From NCBI GenBank assembly GCA_026988515.1, contig JALSLA010000054.1, forward strand, positions 1 through 48,589: a stretch of 48,589 nucleotides of DNA. The letters are read 5' to 3'. Source of the DNA: Helicobacteraceae bacterium. GTDB lineage: Bacteria > Campylobacterota > Campylobacteria > Campylobacterales > Sulfurimonadaceae. A program made the translations under genes and the position numbers. Shown piece by piece: positions 18,904-28,636 of the stretch. The first letter of the stretch is position 1. Each line of letters opens with the position of its first letter. The notes beneath the pieces were generated by a model. The model did not search any database. It worked only from the letters and a program-made list of their open reading frames with translations, and was not told the origin of the DNA.

Positions 18904-19560
18904 ATGTATCAAACGGTCGATACGCAGTATCTCCAAAACATTCCTCTTTTTCACGGCCTCAGTCAAGAAGAATTAGAGCAGTTATGCCCTATTATTAAAG
19001 TCAAGTCTTTTGAAAAAGGAGAAATCTTATACTATGAAAAAGACAAACAGTCTGAAATATACTATCTGAAAAGCGGATTGCTTAAAATCTATAAAATTGA
19101 TCGCTTTGATAATGAAGTTTTCATGTATAACCTCTTTAACGATACACTTATTTCAGAAATCACCGACTTTGAAAAAGTCGGCTGTTTTGCCAATGCCGAA
19201 TTTGTTGTAGCGAGTGATGTACTGGTCATTGATTTCGAAGGTTTCAAAACAATTTATGAGCACAGCCCCAGACTTATGATGCAACTGCTCAAAGAGTTTG
19301 CCAAAAAGAGCAATATGATGCAGTGTATTATTAATAGAGAAATTGTATTCGACGGCACGGCGAAAGTGGCTTTTATGCTCATCAATGACTTGGAACGTTT
19401 CAACAGCTTAAAAAAAAGCGAGATTGCCTATATGCTTAATATCCAGCCTGAAACGCTCTCGCGTATTTTAAAAAAGTTAACACGCAACAAGATGATTGGT
19501 AGCCGTGACGGCAATATTGACATCAATGACCACGAGGCTCTTCGAGCCATTTTTGAGTAA
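18904..19560 (+). CDS. Crp/Fnr-family transcriptional regulator
   Basis: The 218-residue protein has an N-terminal cyclic-nucleotide-binding-like beta barrel (IPLFHGLSQEELEQL, then FEKGEILYYEKDKQSEIYYL), a dimer helix, and a C-terminal winged helix whose recognition helix reads PETLSRILKKL. Residues E183, S186 and R187 keep the E-x-x-S-R pattern with which FNR/DNR proteins read TTGA half-sites. The N-terminal cysteine cluster of oxygen-sensing FNR is absent, and the three cysteines present are scattered. That fits a DNR/NssR-like regulator with another signal. Boxes of this type lie before napA and the nor genes. The next gene, 11 bases on, is a nitrate-sensor-like membrane protein. Confidence 0.85.
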   Translation: MYQTVDTQYLQNIPLFHGLSQEELEQLCPIIKVKSFEKGEILYYEKDKQSEIYYLKSGLLKIYKIDRFDNEVFMYNLFNDTLISEITDFEKVGCFANAEFVVASDVLVIDFEGFKTIYEHSPRLMMQLLKEFAKKSNMMQCIINREIVFDGTAKVAFMLINDLERFNSLKKSEIAYMLNIQPETLSRILKKLTRNKMIGSRDGNIDINDHEALRAIFE

Positions 19561-19571
19561 GGGAAGGGACC

Positions 19572-20930
19572 ATGACTAAGATTACCTCACAAATCAAATT
19601 CATTGGCGGCGTACTCTCGCTGATGATTATCTCCATTGTGCTCATTACCATCTACATTAACCACATGTCGGCACAAGACTCTACGGTCATCAATGTGGCG
19701 GGAAAACAGCGTATGCTAACGCAAAAAATCACCAAAGAGGTCTTTTGGCTTCAGCATCACAGCAGCGATGACTATAGCACTTTAGATACCTCAATCGATG
19801 AGTTTAAACACTCCCTCAATGACCTGATTCACGGCAATGATGCACGCGGTATTTATGCACCGCCAAAACCGTGCATTGCCGAGCAACTCCATCAAATCGA
19901 TGCGTTGTGGCAAAACTTTAAAAACTATCTGCAAGAGTTTAAAGCACTCCTGCATGAGACCAAAACACTCAAAGAGGATGTTCCGAAAAAAAGTGAGTAT
20001 ATTCTCAATATTTCCGATAACGTTGTCAAAGCAATGGTTCATGCCCGTTTAGCCGGTAAACTCATTGACGATGCCGGTCGTCAACGTATGCTGACACAAA
20101 AAATAGCATTTCATCTTTCCCAGTATCTTATGAACGGTCAATCCGAGCATATTACCAGTTTTTTTCATGCTTTTGCACTGTATCAGTCAACATTGGAGCG
20201 TTTTTTACACAATCAAACGCTTATGGGTATCCCTGAACTCAATGCGGTTTTGACAAAAAACAAAACCGTGTGGTATGGCTACTCTGCTTATGTAATTGAG
20301 CTCATGGACAAACAGCGCGATCTCAATCAAACATTACTCAAAGTCAAAGATATTAACGTGGTACTTCTTAATGCCATGGACAATGCCGTCGATGCCTACT
20401 CCACATACTCCAGCCAACGGCACGAGCAGTTACAGCGTTTTCAATATATTGCCAGTATGATTGCTTTGATCTTTATGCTCTACTCCGCTTATTTGACACG
20501 TAATATTGAAGAAAATTTCAGTGACTTTTTAAAGCACTCCAAAGCAATGGCCGTCTCACTCGAAGGAGGCAATACGCACACGAACTATAAAGAAGCCGAC
20601 ACACTGGAAAATGACGAGCTCACCCTGGCTTCAATGCATATGAGTCACTTTGTCGACAAAATCAATACCGTCATTGAACATGCGCAACATGCTATCAATG
20701 AGTCGGAAAATGCTGCGCGCGAACTTGAAGCGGTAAGCCAAAACATTGATGGAAAATTAGAAAAACTAAAGCTGGATGAAGCATCAAAAAAAGATATCGA
20801 TAAAACCATTGATACAAGTGAAGATATTGTCATTCAAACACTCGAAGAGCTCTGTAACACCTCGCGCCTGCTCACGCAGTTACAGCATAATCTTAACAGT
20901 GTTGTAGAGAAAACACAGCGTAACAGATAA
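19572..20930 (+). CDS. Membrane sensor with two NarX/PilJ-type P-boxes, no output domain
   Basis: The 452-residue protein has a membrane segment at about residues 8-30, a large periplasmic helical region, a second membrane segment at about 297-315, and a cytoplasmic helical tail. The periplasmic part has two copies of the nitrate-sensor P-box: AGKQRMLTQKI from residue 43 and AGRQRMLTQKI from residue 168. This is the type IV pili methyl-accepting N-terminal (PilJ/NarX-like) domain. The cytoplasmic tail is predicted coiled coil but lacks the conserved chemoreceptor hairpin tip, a kinase, a GGDEF or any other known output domain. It follows the Crp/Fnr gene by 11 bases and ends 26 bases from the convergent end of the nap operon. 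A role in sensing nitrate or nitrite is likely by motif and context. Confidence 0.8.
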   Translation: MTKITSQIKFIGGVLSLMIISIVLITIYINHMSAQDSTVINVAGKQRMLTQKITKEVFWLQHHSSDDYSTLDTSIDEFKHSLNDLIHGNDARGIYAPPKPCIAEQLHQIDALWQNFKNYLQEFKALLHETKTLKEDVPKKSEYILNISDNVVKAMVHARLAGKLIDDAGRQRMLTQKIAFHLSQYLMNGQSEHITSFFHAFALYQSTLERFLHNQTLMGIPELNAVLTKNKTVWYGYSAYVIELMDKQRDLNQTLLKVKDINVVLLNAMDNAVDAYSTYSSQRHEQLQRFQYIASMIALIFMLYSAYLTRNIEENFSDFLKHSKAMAVSLEGGNTHTNYKEADTLENDELTLASMHMSHFVDKINTVIEHAQHAINESENAARELEAVSQNIDGKLEKLKLDEASKKDIDKTIDTSEDIVIQTLEELCNTSRLLTQLQHNLNSVVEKTQRNR

Positions 20931-20956: not shown

Positions 20957-21400
20957 TTACATGTATTTTACAATACGTTCACGTTCTCCTGCCTCACGAC
21001 GCATCGCATCATAGCGTTTTTGATACTCCAGCTTCTCTTCGCTGCGAATCGGTGTTCGAATCGATTTATACTCTACGAGTTCACCCTCTTTGTAAACGGC
21101 GCTAACTTCGGCATAGACCCAATAAAACCCGGTATCGCTTCGCATGTTTTTAACATATCCTCCCCATTTTTTACCCGCTTGAAGCGTTTGCCACAAATCT
21201 TTGAAAACTGCAGAAGGCATGTCGGGATGCCGAATCACATTATGCGGTTTTCCTATTAACTCTTCAGACGTATACCCACTGATGGCTGCAAACGTCTCAT
21301 TCACATAGGTAATGATTCCTTGCAGATCGGTTCGAGAAATAATCAGTTCATCCTCGGGAACCACGGTCTCAATTAAAAACTCTGATCTGTTATACTCCAT
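20957..21400 (-). CDS. PAS-domain protein, Aer/CetB-like
   Basis: The 147-residue protein is a single PAS domain (IISRTDLQGIITYVNETFAA, ISGYTSEELIGKPHNVIRHP, DMPSAVFKDLWQTLQAGKKW) with a short charged tail. The N-I-R-H-P-D-M-P phrase is typical of the FAD-binding PAS domains of Aer and of CetB, the Campylobacter energy-taxis protein. The start at 21400 is preferred because AAAGGA stands just before it; an in-frame start at 21430 would overlap napD. As the last gene of the nap operon it could report electron-transport state during nitrate respiration to a separate membrane partner. It carries no output domain. Confidence 0.78.
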   Translation of the reverse strand: MEYNRSEFLIETVVPEDELIISRTDLQGIITYVNETFAAISGYTSEELIGKPHNVIRHPDMPSAVFKDLWQTLQAGKKWGGYVKNMRSDTGFYWVYAEVSAVYKEGELVEYKSIRTPIRSEEKLEYQKRYDAMRREAGERERIVKYM

Positions 21401-21401
21401 A

Positions 21402-21788
21402 TTATTGTCCTTTATCCAACTGTTTGGCAAAAGCTTCCAGATCCATTTTTTGCTTTAAGTCACCATTGTAGATAATATCTTTAGCTTCAACGGTATCATC
21501 ATTAAGCATTGCCGGTACGGCATCGGAATGATTGATGACGTCAATATTACGGTCGAGTTCATCTTCGGAATATGCCATCTGCATATCGGCGGCAATTACG
21601 TGAGGTATGGCTTCAATAACACGCAATTTTTTCAACTCTTCATCAACGCTCTCACCCTCAATGGTAATAATAATGCGCCCTTTGGCATCATGCAGGTGAT
21701 AATCACACACGTCGCACGCTTTAATATCACGCAAGACTTCTTCTAAAAATTTCGGTGTGGTTTGTACCACGATACTTGAAATATTCAT
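21402..21788 (-). CDS. napD: Nitrate reductase chaperone NapD
   Basis: The 128-residue protein has the NapD pattern: MNISSIVVQTTPKFLEEVL, a D-Y-H-L-H-D-A-K-G-R-I-I-I-T-I-E strand pair, and V-I-A-A-D-M-Q-M-A-Y near residue 70. NapD binds the Tat signal peptide of NapA and holds export until cofactor insertion is complete. About 45 extra residues after the ferredoxin-like fold (from DRNIDVINHSD on) are longer than in enterobacterial NapD, as is common in Campylobacterota. It sits between napL and the PAS gene on one transcript. Confidence 0.9.
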   Translation of the reverse strand: MNISSIVVQTTPKFLEEVLRDIKACDVCDYHLHDAKGRIIITIEGESVDEELKKLRVIEAIPHVIAADMQMAYSEDELDRNIDVINHSDAVPAMLNDDTVEAKDIIYNGDLKQKMDLEAFAKQLDKGQ

Positions 21789-21798
21789 TCGTATTCTC

Positions 21799-22746
21799 CT
21801 ATTTTAATGTCCAAAAATTAATGGTTTGACTCTCACTGCTTGCAACAACTCGCCCTTCATCCAAAAATAGAATTTGGGTCAAGGTGGCATTTTGACCAAC
21901 CAGATTATACCTTTTGGCTTTGGTATGCGTCTTAAAAATGAGAATATCATTCTCTTCATTATAAGCCACGGCTGAGAGCGAGGCACTGGGACTCAAGGCA
22001 CAACTGTAGAGTAGAAAATGAAAAAGCATATAAGAGGCACTCCCGTCATTTTCGTAAACGACACACCGGCGGTCTTGACCTGCCGTTAAGATGACGCCCT
22101 GTTTGTAGTCAAGCTGATACACTTTATCAAGGTTTTGTCCTTCCAGTCTCTTTATTATCGCAGCGGTTTGCGTCTCGACCACGTGCACCACACCGCTCTC
22201 ATCGGTCGTGGCGTACGTTGTTTTGTCTTCACTGAGCATGAAGTCTGAAAATGACGATGCACTGATCTGTTTGTTATAGACCACCTTGTTTGCAGCCGTA
22301 TCGAAGAGTATCAGTTCATTACTCAACAGTGCAATGAGCAGATGCGTCTCATCCACGAACATGACTTTACGCATAAACCATTTTCGGTTCACATCAATGA
22401 CTTTTTTTACGGTTGCATTCTCTTCAATCCATAGATTCCGATACCCTCTGGTTCCTTCGGAAATAAAAACAATCTTTTTATTATGAACATCGAGCGAATA
22501 GATTTTTGAAGGTATCGTATCGCCCATAAAATCTTTAATCGGAGGGATTTTAATGCTACGTACCAATGTTTTTGTCAGCAGATTGAAAATCTCTACACTG
22601 CCATTACTTGTAGCCGCATACAACAGATTGTTTTGATGCACCATCGCTTGGACATTGCCGCTTGTCTGCAATGAAAAGCTGGGTTTAAGATTCTCTGCTG
22701 ATAACAATGCAACGGCCATATAACACACAATCAAAACTATTTTCAT
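21799..22746 (-). CDS. napL: NapL, WD40-like periplasmic protein of the nap operon
   Basis: The 315-residue protein has a signal peptide (MKIVLIVCYMAVALLSAENL) and then repeated strand-rich units of about 40 residues, for example GNVQAMVHQNNLLYAATSNG, SVEIFNL and LDYKQGVILTAGQDRRCVVY, that fit a WD40/beta-propeller fold. Position between napF and napD matches napL of Wolinella and other Campylobacterota, a gene whose exact task is unresolved and which is not strictly essential for nitrate respiration there. Its start overlaps the stop of the 88-residue gene by 4 bases. Confidence 0.85.
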   Translation of the reverse strand: MKIVLIVCYMAVALLSAENLKPSFSLQTSGNVQAMVHQNNLLYAATSNGSVEIFNLLTKTLVRSIKIPPIKDFMGDTIPSKIYSLDVHNKKIVFISEGTRGYRNLWIEENATVKKVIDVNRKWFMRKVMFVDETHLLIALLSNELILFDTAANKVVYNKQISASSFSDFMLSEDKTTYATTDESGVVHVVETQTAAIIKRLEGQNLDKVYQLDYKQGVILTAGQDRRCVVYENDGSASYMLFHFLLYSCALSPSASLSAVAYNEENDILIFKTHTKAKRYNLVGQNATLTQILFLDEGRVVASSESQTINFWTLK

Positions 22747-23009
22747 TGTCTCTCGATTCCCATTTCTACTTGATACGCGTGAATTGCCCGCTCTACTTCA
22801 TGAAAATGTTCAGGCGTCACATTGGGATCTTTACTCCATTGCACATCAATATCACCGCCGTAATCACTGCCCATCAATTCAATATTCTTCTCAAATTCCG
22901 TCATATCGTTACAAAACATTTCACGTCCGTCTACCGTATCGGTAAGACGAATCCACCAACCGCCGATTCCATTGGACTCTATATTCGATTTAATGACTAC
23001 TTTACTCAT
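22743..23009 (-). CDS. Unknown small protein between napF and napL
   Basis: The 88-residue protein (MSKVVIKSNIESNGIGGWWI, RLTDTVDGREMFCNDMTEFE, KNIELMGSDYGGDIDVQWSK) has no signal peptide, no membrane segment and one cysteine. I do not recognise the family. It overlaps napF by 8 bases and napL by 4 bases, so it is translated as part of the nap operon. The acidic, mostly strand-like sequence with one C-terminal helix suggests a small cytoplasmic folding unit. It could be a maturation helper alongside NapF and NapD; that is inference from place only. Confidence 0.75.
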   Translation of the reverse strand: MSKVVIKSNIESNGIGGWWIRLTDTVDGREMFCNDMTEFEKNIELMGSDYGGDIDVQWSKDPNVTPEHFHEVERAIHAYQVEMGIERQ

Positions 23010-23490
23010 ATGCGTTCACCTCTACTTTAATAGCATTTGTCGGACATACTCTAACACAAAAACCGCATGATGTGCATTTACTCATATCAATCTCAGGACA
23101 GAACAGTCCATCAAAAATTATAGCATCGTCCAAGCAAGGGTCTTTACACGAAAAACACATCACATGATGCCAGCTCATGCATGCTACCACATCAATCTCA
23201 AACGTTGCGGCGACAGGCGCTTTAAAATCTACATGTAAAACGCCGTACTCACACGCCAACGCACAGGCATCACAGTAGGTACACCCACTCTCACTAAAGA
23301 ACAAACAGGGTGTTTTATCTTCCCTTATGACAATTATTTGCTCTTCACAAACAGTGGCACACCGCCCCTCACACCCTGAACACTCGTCTTCAAAAGCCGT
23401 ATTGTCTCTTACATACGGCGGACGGATACAACGCTCTTGCTTAGGCACCAATGCTGAAGCAAGAGAACCCAAAAGTTCTCTTCTCTTCAT
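23002..23490 (-). CDS. napF: Iron-sulfur protein NapF
   Basis: The 162-residue protein contains four ferredoxin-type cysteine clusters: CSGCEGRCATVC, CTYCDACALAC, CMSWHHVMCFSCKDPC (less regular) and CTSCGFCVRVCP. It begins MKRRELLGSLASAL, as NapF proteins do. NapF is a cytoplasmic 4Fe-4S protein thought to help load the iron-sulfur or molybdenum cofactor into NapA before export. It follows napB by 4 bases and overlaps the 88-residue gene. A near-copy of the genome palindrome (CTACATGTAA) lies inside it at 23229-23238. Confidence 0.9.
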   Translation of the reverse strand: MKRRELLGSLASALVPKQERCIRPPYVRDNTAFEDECSGCEGRCATVCEEQIIVIREDKTPCLFFSESGCTYCDACALACEYGVLHVDFKAPVAATFEIDVVACMSWHHVMCFSCKDPCLDDAIIFDGLFCPEIDMSKCTSCGFCVRVCPTNAIKVEVNAYE

Positions 23491-23494
23491 ACGA

Positions 23495-24130
23495 TTACTT
23501 GAGTGTATCTAAGTATTCGGTAAATCGTGAACCGTTCCAGTTTGATTTGACCGCACCGTCCGGATCGGAATATTCCGGTTTAAACGTACTTTCAACCACC
23601 GGTGTACCTGTTGACTGCGGCGCATGACACTGCGAACAATTAAAGCGGGCACCGACCAATCTCTTTTTCGTTTTAATGGAAACATGCGCCATTGTTTCAC
23701 TCGATGTATTCACACCCTTGATAGCATACGATTCCGAGGGTCTAAAATCTGTAAAATGTGATGGTGGAATCGGTGTCGCACCCATATCTTTAGCGACTTC
23801 AGGCAGGTGACATCCCGTACACGCATTATTTTTAATGGTAATGGGTAACATCCCTTCGGTACTGTGCGGAATCATCGGCGGTGCATCCTGAAATGCTCTA
23901 GGAAATTTTTTAGACTCCCCTGCCGCACTTGTCGTATAGGTTGTTTTATCTGCCGTGGTATCGGCTTCGGTATACAGATTTGTCTTTCGTAATCCTAAAG
24001 ACTCTTCACTAATGACCTGCTGCGTTACCGACTTTTGAGCTGCCGGAGCAGCACTATTTGCTTCATTACATCCGGCTAAAAGCACAATGGCTGTTAGCAG
24101 TCCAATGCTTAGTTGATTTTCAAGTTTCAT
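23495..24130 (-). CDS. napB: Dihaem cytochrome c subunit of nitrate reductase NapB, with lipoprotein-type signal
   Basis: The 211-residue protein has two CXXCH haem-binding motifs (CTGCHLPEV and CSQCHAPQS) spaced as in NapB, plus surrounding histidines (PPSHFTDFRP). It passes electrons to NapA in the periplasm. The N-terminus MKLENQLSIGLLTAIVLLAG ends in a lipobox-like LLAG followed by C21, then a Ser/Ala/Thr-rich linker. This suggests that, unlike the soluble enterobacterial NapB, it may be anchored to a membrane by a lipid. It lies between napH and napF. Confidence 0.93.
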   Translation of the reverse strand: MKLENQLSIGLLTAIVLLAGCNEANSAAPAAQKSVTQQVISEESLGLRKTNLYTEADTTADKTTYTTSAAGESKKFPRAFQDAPPMIPHSTEGMLPITIKNNACTGCHLPEVAKDMGATPIPPSHFTDFRPSESYAIKGVNTSSETMAHVSIKTKKRLVGARFNCSQCHAPQSTGTPVVESTFKPEYSDPDGAVKSNWNGSRFTEYLDTLK

Positions 24131-24141
24131 CTTCTCTCCTA

Positions 24142-24984
24142 TTATATTTTTTCTTCTAACGGTTGTGATGCGGGGGCTTCAAGAAATTTTCGAATGGAAA
24201 ATTCCAAAGCCTCATCATCACACACTTCGACACAGCGACCACAGTTGGTGCACTCACCTGAGAGTACGGGCATACTCTTCTTGCCGATCATATGAAGCAC
24301 CTGAGATTCAGGACACACGACCTTACACTTCATACAGAGCGTACAGTGCGCTTCATTATGATGCACACGCACAAAACTGAATCGTCCCACTAACGAATAG
24401 ACACCGCCGATGGGACAGATGTGACCGCACCAGCCGTTTTTTAACACAAACAGATCAAAAAGAAAGATAACGAGCATGGCCGCCCAACCAAAACCAATAC
24501 CGAAAATAATACCGCGGTGTACCATGGCTACGGGTGAAATAAACTCAAAAGCCGCCACCCCAAAGGCTGCCGAAATGATGAGACTCAACCCAATAATCCA
24601 ATAGCGTATATGGCGTGATGCAGGCTGTTTTTTCTGTATTTTATCGAACTCAAACGTGCGTCTTAAGGCGTTGGCGGCATCGGTAATCATATTAACCGGA
24701 CAGACCCAACTGCAAAATGCACGTCCCCCAATGAGAAGATAAAACAAGGTAATGATAGCCGCACCAATGAGAATATTGCTACTTAACATCGCACCGGCGG
24801 CAAACATCTGCAATACGGCATACGGGTCACTCAAAGGAATCACTCCCAAAACGGATGAGGCACTTAAATTTCCCATCAATACCGTCCATCCCCAATAGTT
24901 GCCCGCCATATAAAGCAGGAGTAGCCCAATCTGTGTCAATCGTCGCAATATTAGAAAACGGTACGTATTGTATAGTCTATGCAT
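24142..24984 (-). CDS. napH: Quinol-oxidising membrane iron-sulfur protein NapH
   Basis: The 280-residue protein has four to five membrane segments, two CxxxCP motifs at the cytoplasmic face (CSWVCPVNM and CGHICPIGG) and two C-terminal 4Fe-4S clusters (CTLCMKCKVVCPE and CTNCGRCVEVCDDE). NapH takes electrons from quinol and, with NapG, replaces NapC as the route to NapB/NapA in Campylobacterota; no napC is found in the window. It overlaps the napG stop by one base. Confidence 0.94.
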   Translation of the reverse strand: MHRLYNTYRFLILRRLTQIGLLLLYMAGNYWGWTVLMGNLSASSVLGVIPLSDPYAVLQMFAAGAMLSSNILIGAAIITLFYLLIGGRAFCSWVCPVNMITDAANALRRTFEFDKIQKKQPASRHIRYWIIGLSLIISAAFGVAAFEFISPVAMVHRGIIFGIGFGWAAMLVIFLFDLFVLKNGWCGHICPIGGVYSLVGRFSFVRVHHNEAHCTLCMKCKVVCPESQVLHMIGKKSMPVLSGECTNCGRCVEVCDDEALEFSIRKFLEAPASQPLEEKI

Positions 24985-25805
24985 TAGTACAAATCCCCCG
25001 TATCATTCAACGAATCCACTGCCGATTTTTTACTGATCTCCGTCGTTGTTGTTCGGCTTGACGCACCTTCAAGGCGTTGCTCATCGTTTTGATCCCAACC
25101 TCTAATATAATGCGTACCGGCTCGTCCCATAGCTACCTCACGAGGCAACACAAATATGGCCGCCTTTTCCGTGACACACGCATGTTCACACAAACCGCAT
25201 CCGGTACAGGCATCAGCATGTACCACCGGCTTTAAAAAAGCATGTTTTCCGGTACGGGCATTTTTTTCGTACTCGACCGTAATGGCAACATCAAGAAGCG
25301 GACAGGCCCGATAGCAAGCATCGCATTGAATCCCCCAAAACGCAATGCAGCTTTCGTGATCAATGACAGCAAGCCCCATGTCGGCACTGTTAATATCGAG
25401 CTTATCATCACTACTGACACTCTCGACATCCAAAGCTCCGGTAGGGCATACCGGAACACACGGTATATCGGTACACATGTAACACGGTATATCGCGAGGA
25501 ATAAAATACGGTGTTCCCAACGGCTTTTGATCGCCCGGTTTTGCTAGCATTAACGTATCGTAAGGGCATGCTTCCACACACATACCGCATTTAATACATG
25601 TACGAAGAAACGCCTCCTCGTTCAGGGCACCGGGCGGTCGCAACAACAGTTCTGAAGCTTTCACCTCATCAACATACGCGCTCCAAACCAGTCCGCCCAT
25701 CGCAGCCAGCCCCACGGCTCGTGCTGCATTGAGTAAAAAAGCTCTTCGATCACTAACAGGTTGTTTTCTCATTTGTCTTTCTTTTTCAGGAAGCCTATTG
25801 CTCAA
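24984..25805 (-). CDS. napG: Periplasmic iron-sulfur protein NapG
   Basis: The protein has a Tat-type signal (SDRRAFLLNAARAVGLAAMG) and four 4Fe-4S motifs: CIKCGMCVEACP, CYMCTDIPCVPVCP, CDACYRACP (with an upstream cysteine) and CTGCGLCEHAC. NapG works with NapH as the quinol dehydrogenase of periplasmic nitrate reductase. A TTG at 25805 has a good AAAGGAG ribosome site 9 bases upstream and gives 273 residues. The ATG at 25772 lacks a clear ribosome site and would shorten it to 262 residues. Both keep the Tat motif. It directly follows napA. Confidence 0.93.
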   Translation of the reverse strand: MSNRLPEKERQMRKQPVSDRRAFLLNAARAVGLAAMGGLVWSAYVDEVKASELLLRPPGALNEEAFLRTCIKCGMCVEACPYDTLMLAKPGDQKPLGTPYFIPRDIPCYMCTDIPCVPVCPTGALDVESVSSDDKLDINSADMGLAVIDHESCIAFWGIQCDACYRACPLLDVAITVEYEKNARTGKHAFLKPVVHADACTGCGLCEHACVTEKAAIFVLPREVAMGRAGTHYIRGWDQNDEQRLEGASSRTTTTEISKKSAVDSLNDTGDLY

Positions 25806-25825: not shown

Positions 25826-28636
25826 TTATGCTTTATAAATTTTAACGGCACATTTTTTAAAGTCTGTCTGTTTTGACTGCGGACAGGTTGCATCCAAACA
25901 TACTTTGTTGATAAATACCTTCTCATCAAACCACGGTACAAAGACCAAACCGCGGCTCGGTCGATTTCGCCCGCGTGTCTCAACCCGTGCTTTTACTTTG
26001 CCGCGACGTGATTCAACCCAGCACAAACCGCCTTGCTTCAAGCCTTTTTCTTTGGCATCTTGCGGATGCATGTAGCACAATGCTTCCGGAACCGCGCGAT
26101 AGAGTTCAGGCACACGCATGGTCATAGTTCCGGAGTGCCAGTGTTCTAGCACACGACCGGTACTCAACCATAACGGGTACTCTTTATCTGGCATTTCCGG
26201 TGGATCCATGTACGGACGTGCAAAGATTTTCGCTTTATTTTTAAGCGATTTTTTTGTTTTGTCTTTCACGCCGTTCAGGTCACCCTGCATCAACGCTTTG
26301 GCAAGTTTACCGTAGAAAGCATGGGTCGTACCGGTTTTTTCTCTGGCCGCATATGGATCATATTTCACATTAAAACGCCATTGGGTCTCTTTACCGTCAA
26401 CAACCGGCCACTTGAGTCCACGAACTTTATGGTAGGTGTCGAAATCAGCCAAGTCATGTCCGTGTCCACGGCCAAAATCTGCATACTCTTCAAACAGATA
26501 TTTGTGAATGAAGAACCCGTAACCTTTAAAAACTTTACCGTCAGAACCGACCACATTACGGCTATCACCCAAACACTCCGAGTTGTCAAAACCTGCTTGA
26601 ATCGGATCTTCAGGGTCCAGTTTATACGATCGTGCTCTGTCATTGGCAAACAAAATCTCATACATCGTCGTATTTTCATTGTATCCCATAGCTTTGGCTT
26701 TGGCAATCACATCAGGAAGTTTTTTACCGCCGCGTAGTGGTTGCTCACCCCATACATCTTTTACCGTAAAACGTTTGGAAAGCTCAACCCACTGCCACGT
26801 ATCAGACATAGCATCACCGACAGGAAGCACCTGCTGTCTCCAGTGCTGCGTACGACGTTCTGCATTACCGTATGCTCCCCATTTCTCATAGATCATTGCT
26901 GATGGCAAGATAAGGTCAGATACTTTTGCAGAGATACCCGGATAGCCATCAGAAGTAACAATGAAGTTATCCATCTCACGTGCCGCTTTAATCCAGTGAC
27001 TGGCACTTGCCGTATCTTGGTAAGGATTACAAACATTAACCCATGCAAACTTCACAACACCGTCTTCAATATCACGATGAATTTTCATGATGTGCTGATT
27101 ACCAACCGGATTGAGCGTTCCCTCAGGGATTTTCCAAGAGTGCTCTACAATTTTACGGTGTGCCGGATTTTTAACCATCATATCCGCAGGCAAACGGTGA
27201 CAGAAGGTTCCGACTTCACGTGCCGTACCGCACGCTGAAGGTTGACCGGTCAACGAAAATGCGCCCGAACCCGGTAACGCTTGTTTATTCAACAAGAAAT
27301 GGACATTGTAAGCGAGTGTGTTCACCCAGGTACCGCGTGTATGTTGGTTCATACCCATAGTCCAAAACGAGACTACTTTGCGCCCTTTTTCAATATAAAG
27401 ATCGGCTAACTCTTTTAGCTTCTTCTTAAACTCTTTAATATCTTCATCCGGATTGCCTTTGGAAATTTCGGCAACATAATCTAAAGTATACGGTTTGAGA
27501 AATTTTTTGTACTCTTCAAATGAAATTTCCCAGTGTGCCAATCCTGCCGGATTGTTCACCATGACATCACCCTCTTTGTACCCGTACGGTGCAAGAGCCG
27601 GTGCCTCTTTGGCAGAAACTACTTTTTTCATCTCTTTTGCCATAATCTCCATCTCTTTGGCGGAATATTTTCCATCTTTAAGAGACTTTTCACCTTCGCG
27701 ACGCATACCATAACCCATATTGACCGGACTTGCAGCAAACACAATGTGTTTCTTGACAAAATCCCAATCAATTGCATCAGGATGATTGTAAACAATTTCA
27801 TGCGCTATATAGTTCCACAGTGCCAGATCGGTATTGGGTGAAAAAATAATCTCCGTATCGGCTAAATCCGATGTTCGGTGACGATAGGTCGACATATTGA
27901 TCACTTTAACACGCTCCGGATCGGAAAGTTTACGATCGGTAACACGTGACCAGAGAATGGGGTGCATTTCTGCCATATTTGAACCCCAACTAACAATAGT
28001 ATCGGTTAACTCAATATCATCATAACAACCGGAAGGCTCATCAATACCAAAGGTCTGGTAGAACCCTACAACCGCTGAAGCCATGCAGTGACGGGCATTG
28101 GGGTCAATCGCATTCGAACGAAAACCGCCCTTCATCATCTTTTGAGCAGCATACCCTTCCATTACGGTATATTGTCCCGAAGCAAAGACAGCAACCCCCT
28201 CGGGTCCGCTGGCTTTAAGCGCTTTTTTAATGTGCGTTTCCATCTCGTCAAAAGCACGTTGCCACGATACCGGACGGAACTTTCCTTTCTTGTCGAAATT
28301 TCCTTTCTCATCCATGCGCAACAGCGGTGTTGTCAGACGATCGGCACCGTACATAATCTTGGCATTGAAATACCCTTTAATACAGTTTAGACCACGATTG
28401 ACCGGAGCTGCCGGATCCCCTTTGACAGCCACGATTTTTCCCCCTTTGGTTGCGAGCATAATCCCGCATCCCGTACCGCAGAAGCGGCATGCAGCTTTGT
28501 CCCATCTCCAATCGCTTTGTGCTGCGTTGGATTTGGCCTCTAAATCACTCGGAACAGCCATGCCGATGGCTGCCGCAGCTGATGCTGCCGCCGAACTCTT
28601 TAGAAAATCTCTACGTGAAATTGACATCTTTGACAT
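25826..28636 (-). CDS. napA: Periplasmic nitrate reductase catalytic subunit NapA
   Basis: The 936-residue enzyme reduces nitrate to nitrite in the periplasm. It starts with a Tat signal ([19 protein letters not shown]), then the 4Fe-4S site CRFCGTGCG, and has the molybdenum-ligand cysteine in [18 protein letters not shown]. The C-terminal molybdopterin-binding region includes [19 protein letters not shown]. Length is in the long class usual for Campylobacterota (enterobacterial NapA is about 830). The ATG at 28636 has an AAAGGAG site 5 bases upstream; a second ATG lies nine bases in. It is the first gene of the nap operon and is preceded by an FNR-type box and -10 hexamer. Confidence 0.98.

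Follow-up and report, generated by a model that had tools for sequence, protein, structure and literature searches.

A membrane protein encoded directly behind a Crp/Fnr-family regulator and next to the periplasmic nitrate reductase (nap) genes of a member of the Campylobacterota is, in our judgement likely, a phosphorylation-free nitrate receptor which would control the co-encoded NssA-type Crp/Fnr protein through a degenerate HAMP domain and a helical hairpin. The features that carry this reading (Table 1) lie in the window, the whole stretch of 48,589 nucleotides that was analysed.

The open reading frame of the sensor starts with ATG 11 bases 3' of the stop codon of the Crp/Fnr gene, and the nap cluster, arranged as napA-G-H-B-F-L-D followed by a gene for a PAS-only protein and running from 28636 down to 20957, converges on it, so that both neighbourhoods named in an earlier note on this DNA agree with the coordinates. 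The protein, the sole PilJ protein of the window genome, matches PF13675 in two stretches with a whole-protein E-value of 2.1e-27 and 95.9 bits against a gathering cut-off of 26.6. Both boxes, INVAGKQRMLTQ and IDDAGRQRMLTQ, fit with their GxxR motif the published N-box pattern [IVL]-[ND]-x-A-G-x-Q-R-M-L-[ST]-Q, which was derived from the nitrate chemoreceptor McpN (PMC6381276), and not even one N-box arose in any of 20,000 shuffles of the sensor. Since hydropathy places transmembrane helix 1 (TM1) at residues ~11-29 and transmembrane helix 2 (TM2) at ~290-308, the two boxes share one periplasmic region; the suggestion of two P-boxes close to the NarX/NarQ type within a single periplasmic part is therefore well founded.

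Table 1. Features of the window, with coordinates counted from its first letter
Feature	Coordinates	Strand	Description and basis
Crp/Fnr-family regulator, NssA clade	18904..19560	+	218 aa; PF13545 and PF00027 above cut-off; tree; proposed direct target of the sensor
Cys94 codon of regulator	19183..19185	+	aligned with Arg82 of E. coli CRP, effector pocket; profile alignment
Cys141 codon of regulator	19324..19326	+	C-helix, next to the CRP adenine contacts; profile alignment
P-box membrane sensor gene	19572..20930	+	452 aa; TM1, PilJ, PilJ, TM2, degenerate HAMP, helical hairpin; without enzymatic output domain
Transmembrane helix 1 (TM1)	19602..19658	+	residues ~11-29; hydropathy, model
First PilJ domain	19653..19967	+	residues 28-132; Pfam match
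N-box/P-box 1, INVAGKQRMLTQ	19689..19724	+	residues 40-51; GxxR at 44-47
Second PilJ domain	20052..20237	+	partial PF13675 match
N-box/P-box 2, IDDAGRQRMLTQ	20064..20099	+	residues 165-176; exactly 125 residues past box 1
Transmembrane helix 2 (TM2)	20439..20495	+	residues ~290-308; hydropathy, model
Degenerate HAMP domain	20508..20663	+	residues ~313-364; hhalign
Rest of C-terminal helical hairpin	20664..20921	+	helices 349-398 and 403-450; conserved SED..IQ.LEEL; candidate contact surface for the regulator
PAS-only protein	20957..21430	-	overlaps napD at its end; assigned to the nap cluster and not to the sensor-regulator pair
napG, napH, napB, napF, napL-type WD40 protein, napD	21402..25805	-	
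napA, catalytic subunit of periplasmic nitrate reductase	25826..28636	-	TIGR01706, 1359 bits; proposed target operon
Palindrome TTGACTAAGGTCAA	28694..28707		candidate regulator site, 57 bp upstream of the napA start

Most homologues of the sensor carry a single PilJ domain and the window protein carries two, with a spacing of 125 residues from box to box in 43 of 44 double-PilJ proteins. Residues G44, R47 and M48 are kept in 108, 107 and 108 of the 109 sensors of the nap and other non-nos types. In McpN, which binds one nitrate on the dimer axis, the arginine of the box forms two hydrogen bonds to the ligand. In NarX/NarQ, even an exchange of this arginine for lysine abolishes the response (PMC8199190). 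Fold searches returned PilJ as the best PDB match of the double-PilJ model and McpN and NarQ sensor-transmembrane fragments as the best matches of the single-PilJ model; from the exact N-boxes and this McpN/NarQ-like fold, we infer that nitrate binds at the GxxR boxes. Related arrangements occur elsewhere in the phylum: proteins of ~560-600 aa encoded in genomes of other families (G210, G312, G462, G378) carry PilJ-like segments three or four times in tandem, and another locus (L072:7014-10275, minus strand) encodes several short proteins in a row that probably have signal peptides. Three or more of these short proteins have a PilJ N-box and none has a TM2 or output part; they are possibly soluble periplasmic nitrate binders.

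The cytoplasmic part had been described in the earlier note as coiled coil only, with no kinase, chemoreceptor tip or GGDEF domain. The second half of this description stands, as neither HisKA, HATPase, MCPsignal nor GGDEF is among the top Pfam families matched by 24 homologues, and HMM, profile-profile and fold searches of the sensor gave no recognisable output domain, including the HisKA_3 DHp and HATPase domains of the NarX/NarQ kinases. The first half gives way to a degenerate HAMP domain and a helical hairpin. Compared profile to profile (hhalign) with HAMP domains of Campylobacterota genomes, the region after TM2 scored 93.7% (P 1.8e-7, 45 of 49 HAMP columns), against 0.5% for the reversed sequence and at most 1.4% for all reversed and other segments of the sensor; by this comparison solely is the HAMP domain visible, Pfam giving none among the top families of the 24 homologues. 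No MA-type tip appeared alongside it, and profile comparison with reversed controls ruled out that the tail is a reduced form of an MCP tip or of a DHp domain. The best-conserved residues of the tail are on the second helix of the hairpin, where E417, D418, I421, E425, L427, L434, L437 and L441 are kept in 91-97% of 117 proteins. Two AlphaFold2 models, one of the double- and one of the single-PilJ form, share the order TM2 helix, flexible linker and two long helices, with modest confidence in the tail (pLDDT ~67-75). As judged from profiles and models, the cytoplasmic part is thus a degenerate HAMP domain followed by a helical hairpin of no recognised family.

Within the family of the window genome, 69 of the 121 genomes searched encode a homologue of the sensor, and homologues are widespread in the phylum. 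Throughout Campylobacterota, 125 distinct pairs with the Crp/Fnr gene directly upstream of the sensor gene on the same strand were collected, in genera that include Sulfurimonas, Sulfuricurvum, Sulfurospirillum, Arcobacter, Aliarcobacter and Helicobacter; the intergenic distance is -12 to +18 bp in 118 of them, often with overlap of the genes, and the other seven distances mostly result from the choice of start codon by the longest reading frame. The paired regulators form one clade (SH-aLRT 100) apart from the unpaired NssB-like and NssC-like ones. As the first loci had been selected by the sensor, a census of 397 genomes was made with a regulator profile, and loci were fetched for matches without an already known neighbouring sensor. 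A match with an E-value of 1e-50 or better was present in 127 genomes, one of them NssB-like, and the regulator lacks the sensor in about four of ~126 genomes (G003, G361, G374, G464). These four are long-branched, separate losses nested among paired lineages, two of them with the regulator adjoining napA, so that the regulator can be retained alone; their loci (L318, L319, L320 and L321) offer natural tests of a regulator of the NssA type acting by itself. The statement that the regulator never occurs without the sensor, which came from the sensor-selected loci, was abandoned in view of the census.

With 125 adjacent pairs, a single regulator clade and so few exceptions, the Crp/Fnr protein is the supported one among the three partners proposed in the earlier note, the others being the PAS protein and a chemoreceptor array. 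Evolutionary distances between regulators and those between sensor tails correlate with r 0.80, or 0.67 after correction by NapA, values which come from related sequences and hence carry no P-value. Residue coupling over 117 concatenated pairs (effective number 82) gave inter-protein scores above those of shuffles, but these scores are dominated by phylogeny and no interface was derived from them. No paper describing the sensor-Crp/Fnr pair was found among the open-access papers searched.

The window regulator, in which Pfam recognises a cNMP-binding fold and a Crp helix-turn-helix, groups with the Wolinella succinogenes regulator assigned NssA and apart from the NssB- and NssC-like ones (SH-aLRT 100). 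The genome concerned (G275) was assigned to W. succinogenes because its FrdA agrees in all of 656 residues with the fumarate reductase of structures 1e7p/2bs2, the Wolinella enzyme. It has three Crp/Fnr genes at the search threshold, and only the one that fits NssA has a sensor beside it, a double-box protein of 460 aa encoded 3' of the regulator, the pair being one gene away from napA. Towards the three W. succinogenes regulators, the nap-side regulators of four genomes of one family (f8) show 45-46%, 28-31% and 24-28% identity and the nor-side regulators of f8 genomes 32-36%, 50-51% and 27%, while two Nitrosophilus labii regulators have been reported with 44.8/29.2/26.1 and 33.3/50.0/28.2% towards NssA/NssB/NssC (PMC11539149). 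As identities of ~45/29/26 match the published 44.8/29.2/26.1, NssA is, by sequence comparison, very probably the paired regulator of W. succinogenes. When nitrate is present, NssA raises the expression of the reductases for nitrate, nitrite and N2O, and it is required for the induction by nitrate (PMC6682613); a 2021 review called the mechanism by which Crp/Fnr regulators of the Nss type sense nitrate, NO and N2O unknown, with a need for further study in the case of nitrate (PMC8139620). The window genome has a second Crp/Fnr gene (G000:C75:4380-5012, L193), which is unpaired and NssB-like.

The pairs occur with nap, nrf, nos or nor-nir genes. Of the non-nos pairs, 82 have 6 kb or more of flanking sequence in both directions; 60 of these are located by napA, eight more by nrfA and 14 elsewhere, some of the latter, in Arcobacter and Aliarcobacter, preceding genes for cytochrome c, COX1-family and cytochrome d1 proteins, that is norCB-nirS. 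NapA is encoded in 115 of 117 genomes with the sensor versus 215 of 280 without (Fisher P 6e-9), and NapA without the pair is common, as in family f3 and much of f2. The association of the sensor with the regulator and with N-oxide respiration, read by the earlier note from a single locus, thus persists in other species. The PAS-only protein also recurs in nap clusters and resembles PAS domains of the NifL/Aer type.

A palindrome of the form TTGAY-N4-RTCAA is found with at most one mismatch in 96% of 84 napA upstream regions versus 6% of shuffles, and exactly in eight of eight nosZ upstream regions. The window genome holds four perfect sites, of which only that at napA is clearly in a relevant promoter, and W. 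succinogenes five: napA is preceded by two and nrfH by one, another is near a NIT-domain gene, and the fifth is intragenic. TTAAC-N4-GTTAA, tested as an alternative site, was not enriched. The regulator presumably acts at TTGAC-N4-GTCAA upstream of napA. The W. succinogenes NIT-domain gene with a perfect site nearby (L259, G275:C1:968595) encodes a nitrate-sensing type of receptor protein.

Taken as a two-protein, phosphorylation-free module, the pair would work as follows. The sensor would serve as the periplasmic nitrate receptor, with nitrate bound by the GxxR boxes where the PilJ helical bundles meet on the dimer axis, and the signal would pass from TM2 through the degenerate HAMP domain, visible in sequence and fold and with a putative role in transmission, to the C-terminal hairpin. 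The hairpin would contact the co-encoded NssA-type Crp/Fnr protein, probably directly, and switch its activity in one of two modes: the unliganded sensor may sequester the regulator, or the nitrate-bound sensor may activate it. The switched regulator would then bind TTGAC-N4-GTCAA upstream of napA and activate nap.

That the Crp/Fnr protein instead senses a signal of its own (NO, redox state or a ligand), with the sensor merely co-transcribed and acting elsewhere, seems unlikely. Cys94 and Cys141, which may face each other in the effector pocket and form a possible redox or NO switch, are located at the ligand pocket of CRP and are kept or lost together, with both present in 96 of 109 non-nos pairs, one in two and neither in 11. 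This cysteine pair suggests that the regulator may itself sense something too, and the four genomes with the regulator alone are in line with such a role. The two cysteines are, however, absent from the nos-type regulators and from several Helicobacter and f6 pairs, and so cannot be the core mechanism. The phosphate-binding Arg82 of CRP is absent from the window regulator, Cys94 aligning there, and in place of the four cysteines of the FNR 4Fe-4S cluster the window regulator has three (28, 94 and 141) and the nos-type regulators have zero to two (none in L066 and L071), few and at varying positions, so that an FNR-type cluster is absent. Co-expression alone would also leave the near-universal 1:1 pairing and the separate co-duplication at nosZ unexplained.

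Ranking next, and likewise improbable, is a relay from the sensor to a third protein encoded elsewhere, such as a histidine kinase or a c-di-GMP enzyme, with the regulator as a separate branch; there are known examples of sensors that work with an accessory or a separate kinase, and the hairpin could bind other helical proteins, but only the Crp/Fnr gene recurs beside the sensor in nap, nrf, nos and nor contexts. We regard it as very unlikely that the sensor, though it lacks a tip of its own, is a receptor within chemoreceptor arrays. CheW-domain proteins are encoded in the window genome, and a related orphan sensor of another genome (L137:8001-9311), without an adjacent Crp/Fnr gene and next to a CheV-like gene, is perhaps the same receptor rewired to chemotaxis. 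Yet an MCPsignal domain with its conserved tip was found in the sensor neither by Pfam nor by profile comparison, its hairpin matching the MCP signalling hairpin at 1-3% in hhalign, no better than reversed, and the genes with which the sensor is linked are Crp/Fnr and N-oxide genes rather than che genes. The PAS protein, although the next gene, convergent and at the end of the nap cluster, is a highly improbable partner, since it belongs to that cluster, is present in 39 of 76 loci with napD (a lower bound owing to locus ends) and seems to have no link with the pair at nrf, nos and nor loci.

Beside the nitrate receptor proposed for nap, Sulfurimonas species possess a second sensor-regulator pair upstream of nosZ. 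In both the regulator and the sensor tree, the eight nosZ-side members form one clade nested among single-PilJ nap-type ones, and all eight sensors have N-K-A at the positions of G44-R47-M48. At 16 further loci with an adjacent regulator, GxxR is lost and lysine replaces the arginine, with nosZ in the fetched stretch of 15; together, all 24 sister pairs examined have exchanged Arg for Lys and lost the Gly, and 23 are seen beside nosZ. Because the arginine is lysine there, and in view of the NarX/NarQ mutant data, nitrate is an unlikely ligand of the nos type; going by their boxes, these sister sensors probably detect something else, perhaps N2O or NO. The same transmission parts would be used with a changed ligand site. 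That the nosZ pair is a dedicated transmembrane sensor of N2O (or NO), with a remodelled P-box (loss of Gly, Lys for Arg and a small or polar residue for Met) and phosphorylation-free coupling to its own Crp/Fnr protein, is a tentative reading to which we attach a rather low probability. Such a pair is not general, as the regulator directly before nosZ in W. succinogenes (L200) is unpaired.

Each component of the module is of a known kind. McpN of Pseudomonas aeruginosa (PDB 6gcv), the best PDB sequence match of the sensor and best fold match of the single-PilJ model, likewise combines the PilJ fold with an N-box containing GxxR, but has an MCP signalling domain and steers chemotaxis, whereas the sensor has two PilJ domains, a degenerate HAMP domain and a hairpin without an MCP tip. 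With the NarX/NarQ and NarL/NarP systems it has in common the P-box, a helical periplasmic sensor part, two transmembrane helices, a HAMP domain past TM2 and the control of nap, which is proposed for the sensor, yet it is devoid of the S-helix, the GAF-like, the DHp and the ATPase domains, and the partner of NarX/NarQ is a response regulator where a Crp/Fnr protein is proposed here. NasS-NasT and NreA-NreB also depend on protein contact between a nitrate receptor and the separate regulator or kinase under its control, but their receptors are soluble proteins of the cytoplasm, while in the present case the receptor is transmembrane and the proposed target a Crp/Fnr activator. PilJ, the chemoreceptor of type IV pili (PDB 8wdf, 7zjr), has two tandem PilJ domains in one periplasmic region like the sensor, but its N-box is unconserved in either domain and it does not bind nitrate (PMC6381276), whereas both boxes of the sensor are intact. 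NssA of W. succinogenes and the NssR family are close as well: the gene assigned NssA adjoins nap and is accompanied by the same sensor as the window regulator, a member of its clade. The reviews consulted mention no sensor partner for NssA, and regulators of the NssB-like and NssC-like kinds are unpaired.

Specialists would be surprised by a P-box receptor that has no kinase and is tied to a Crp/Fnr protein. If true, it would represent a transmembrane route by which a NarX/McpN-like sensor acts on a Crp/Fnr activator without kinase, phosphotransfer or second messenger, and the sister pair at nosZ would, if the tentative reading holds, be a receptor-type N2O sensing system; it is in any case a concrete candidate for the receptor through which N2O or NO would control nitrous-oxide reductase, by which N2O is removed. 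A separate receptor in the periplasm offers a directly testable answer to nitrate sensing by NssA-type regulators, in a phylum that matters in vents, sediments, sulfidic waters and guts.
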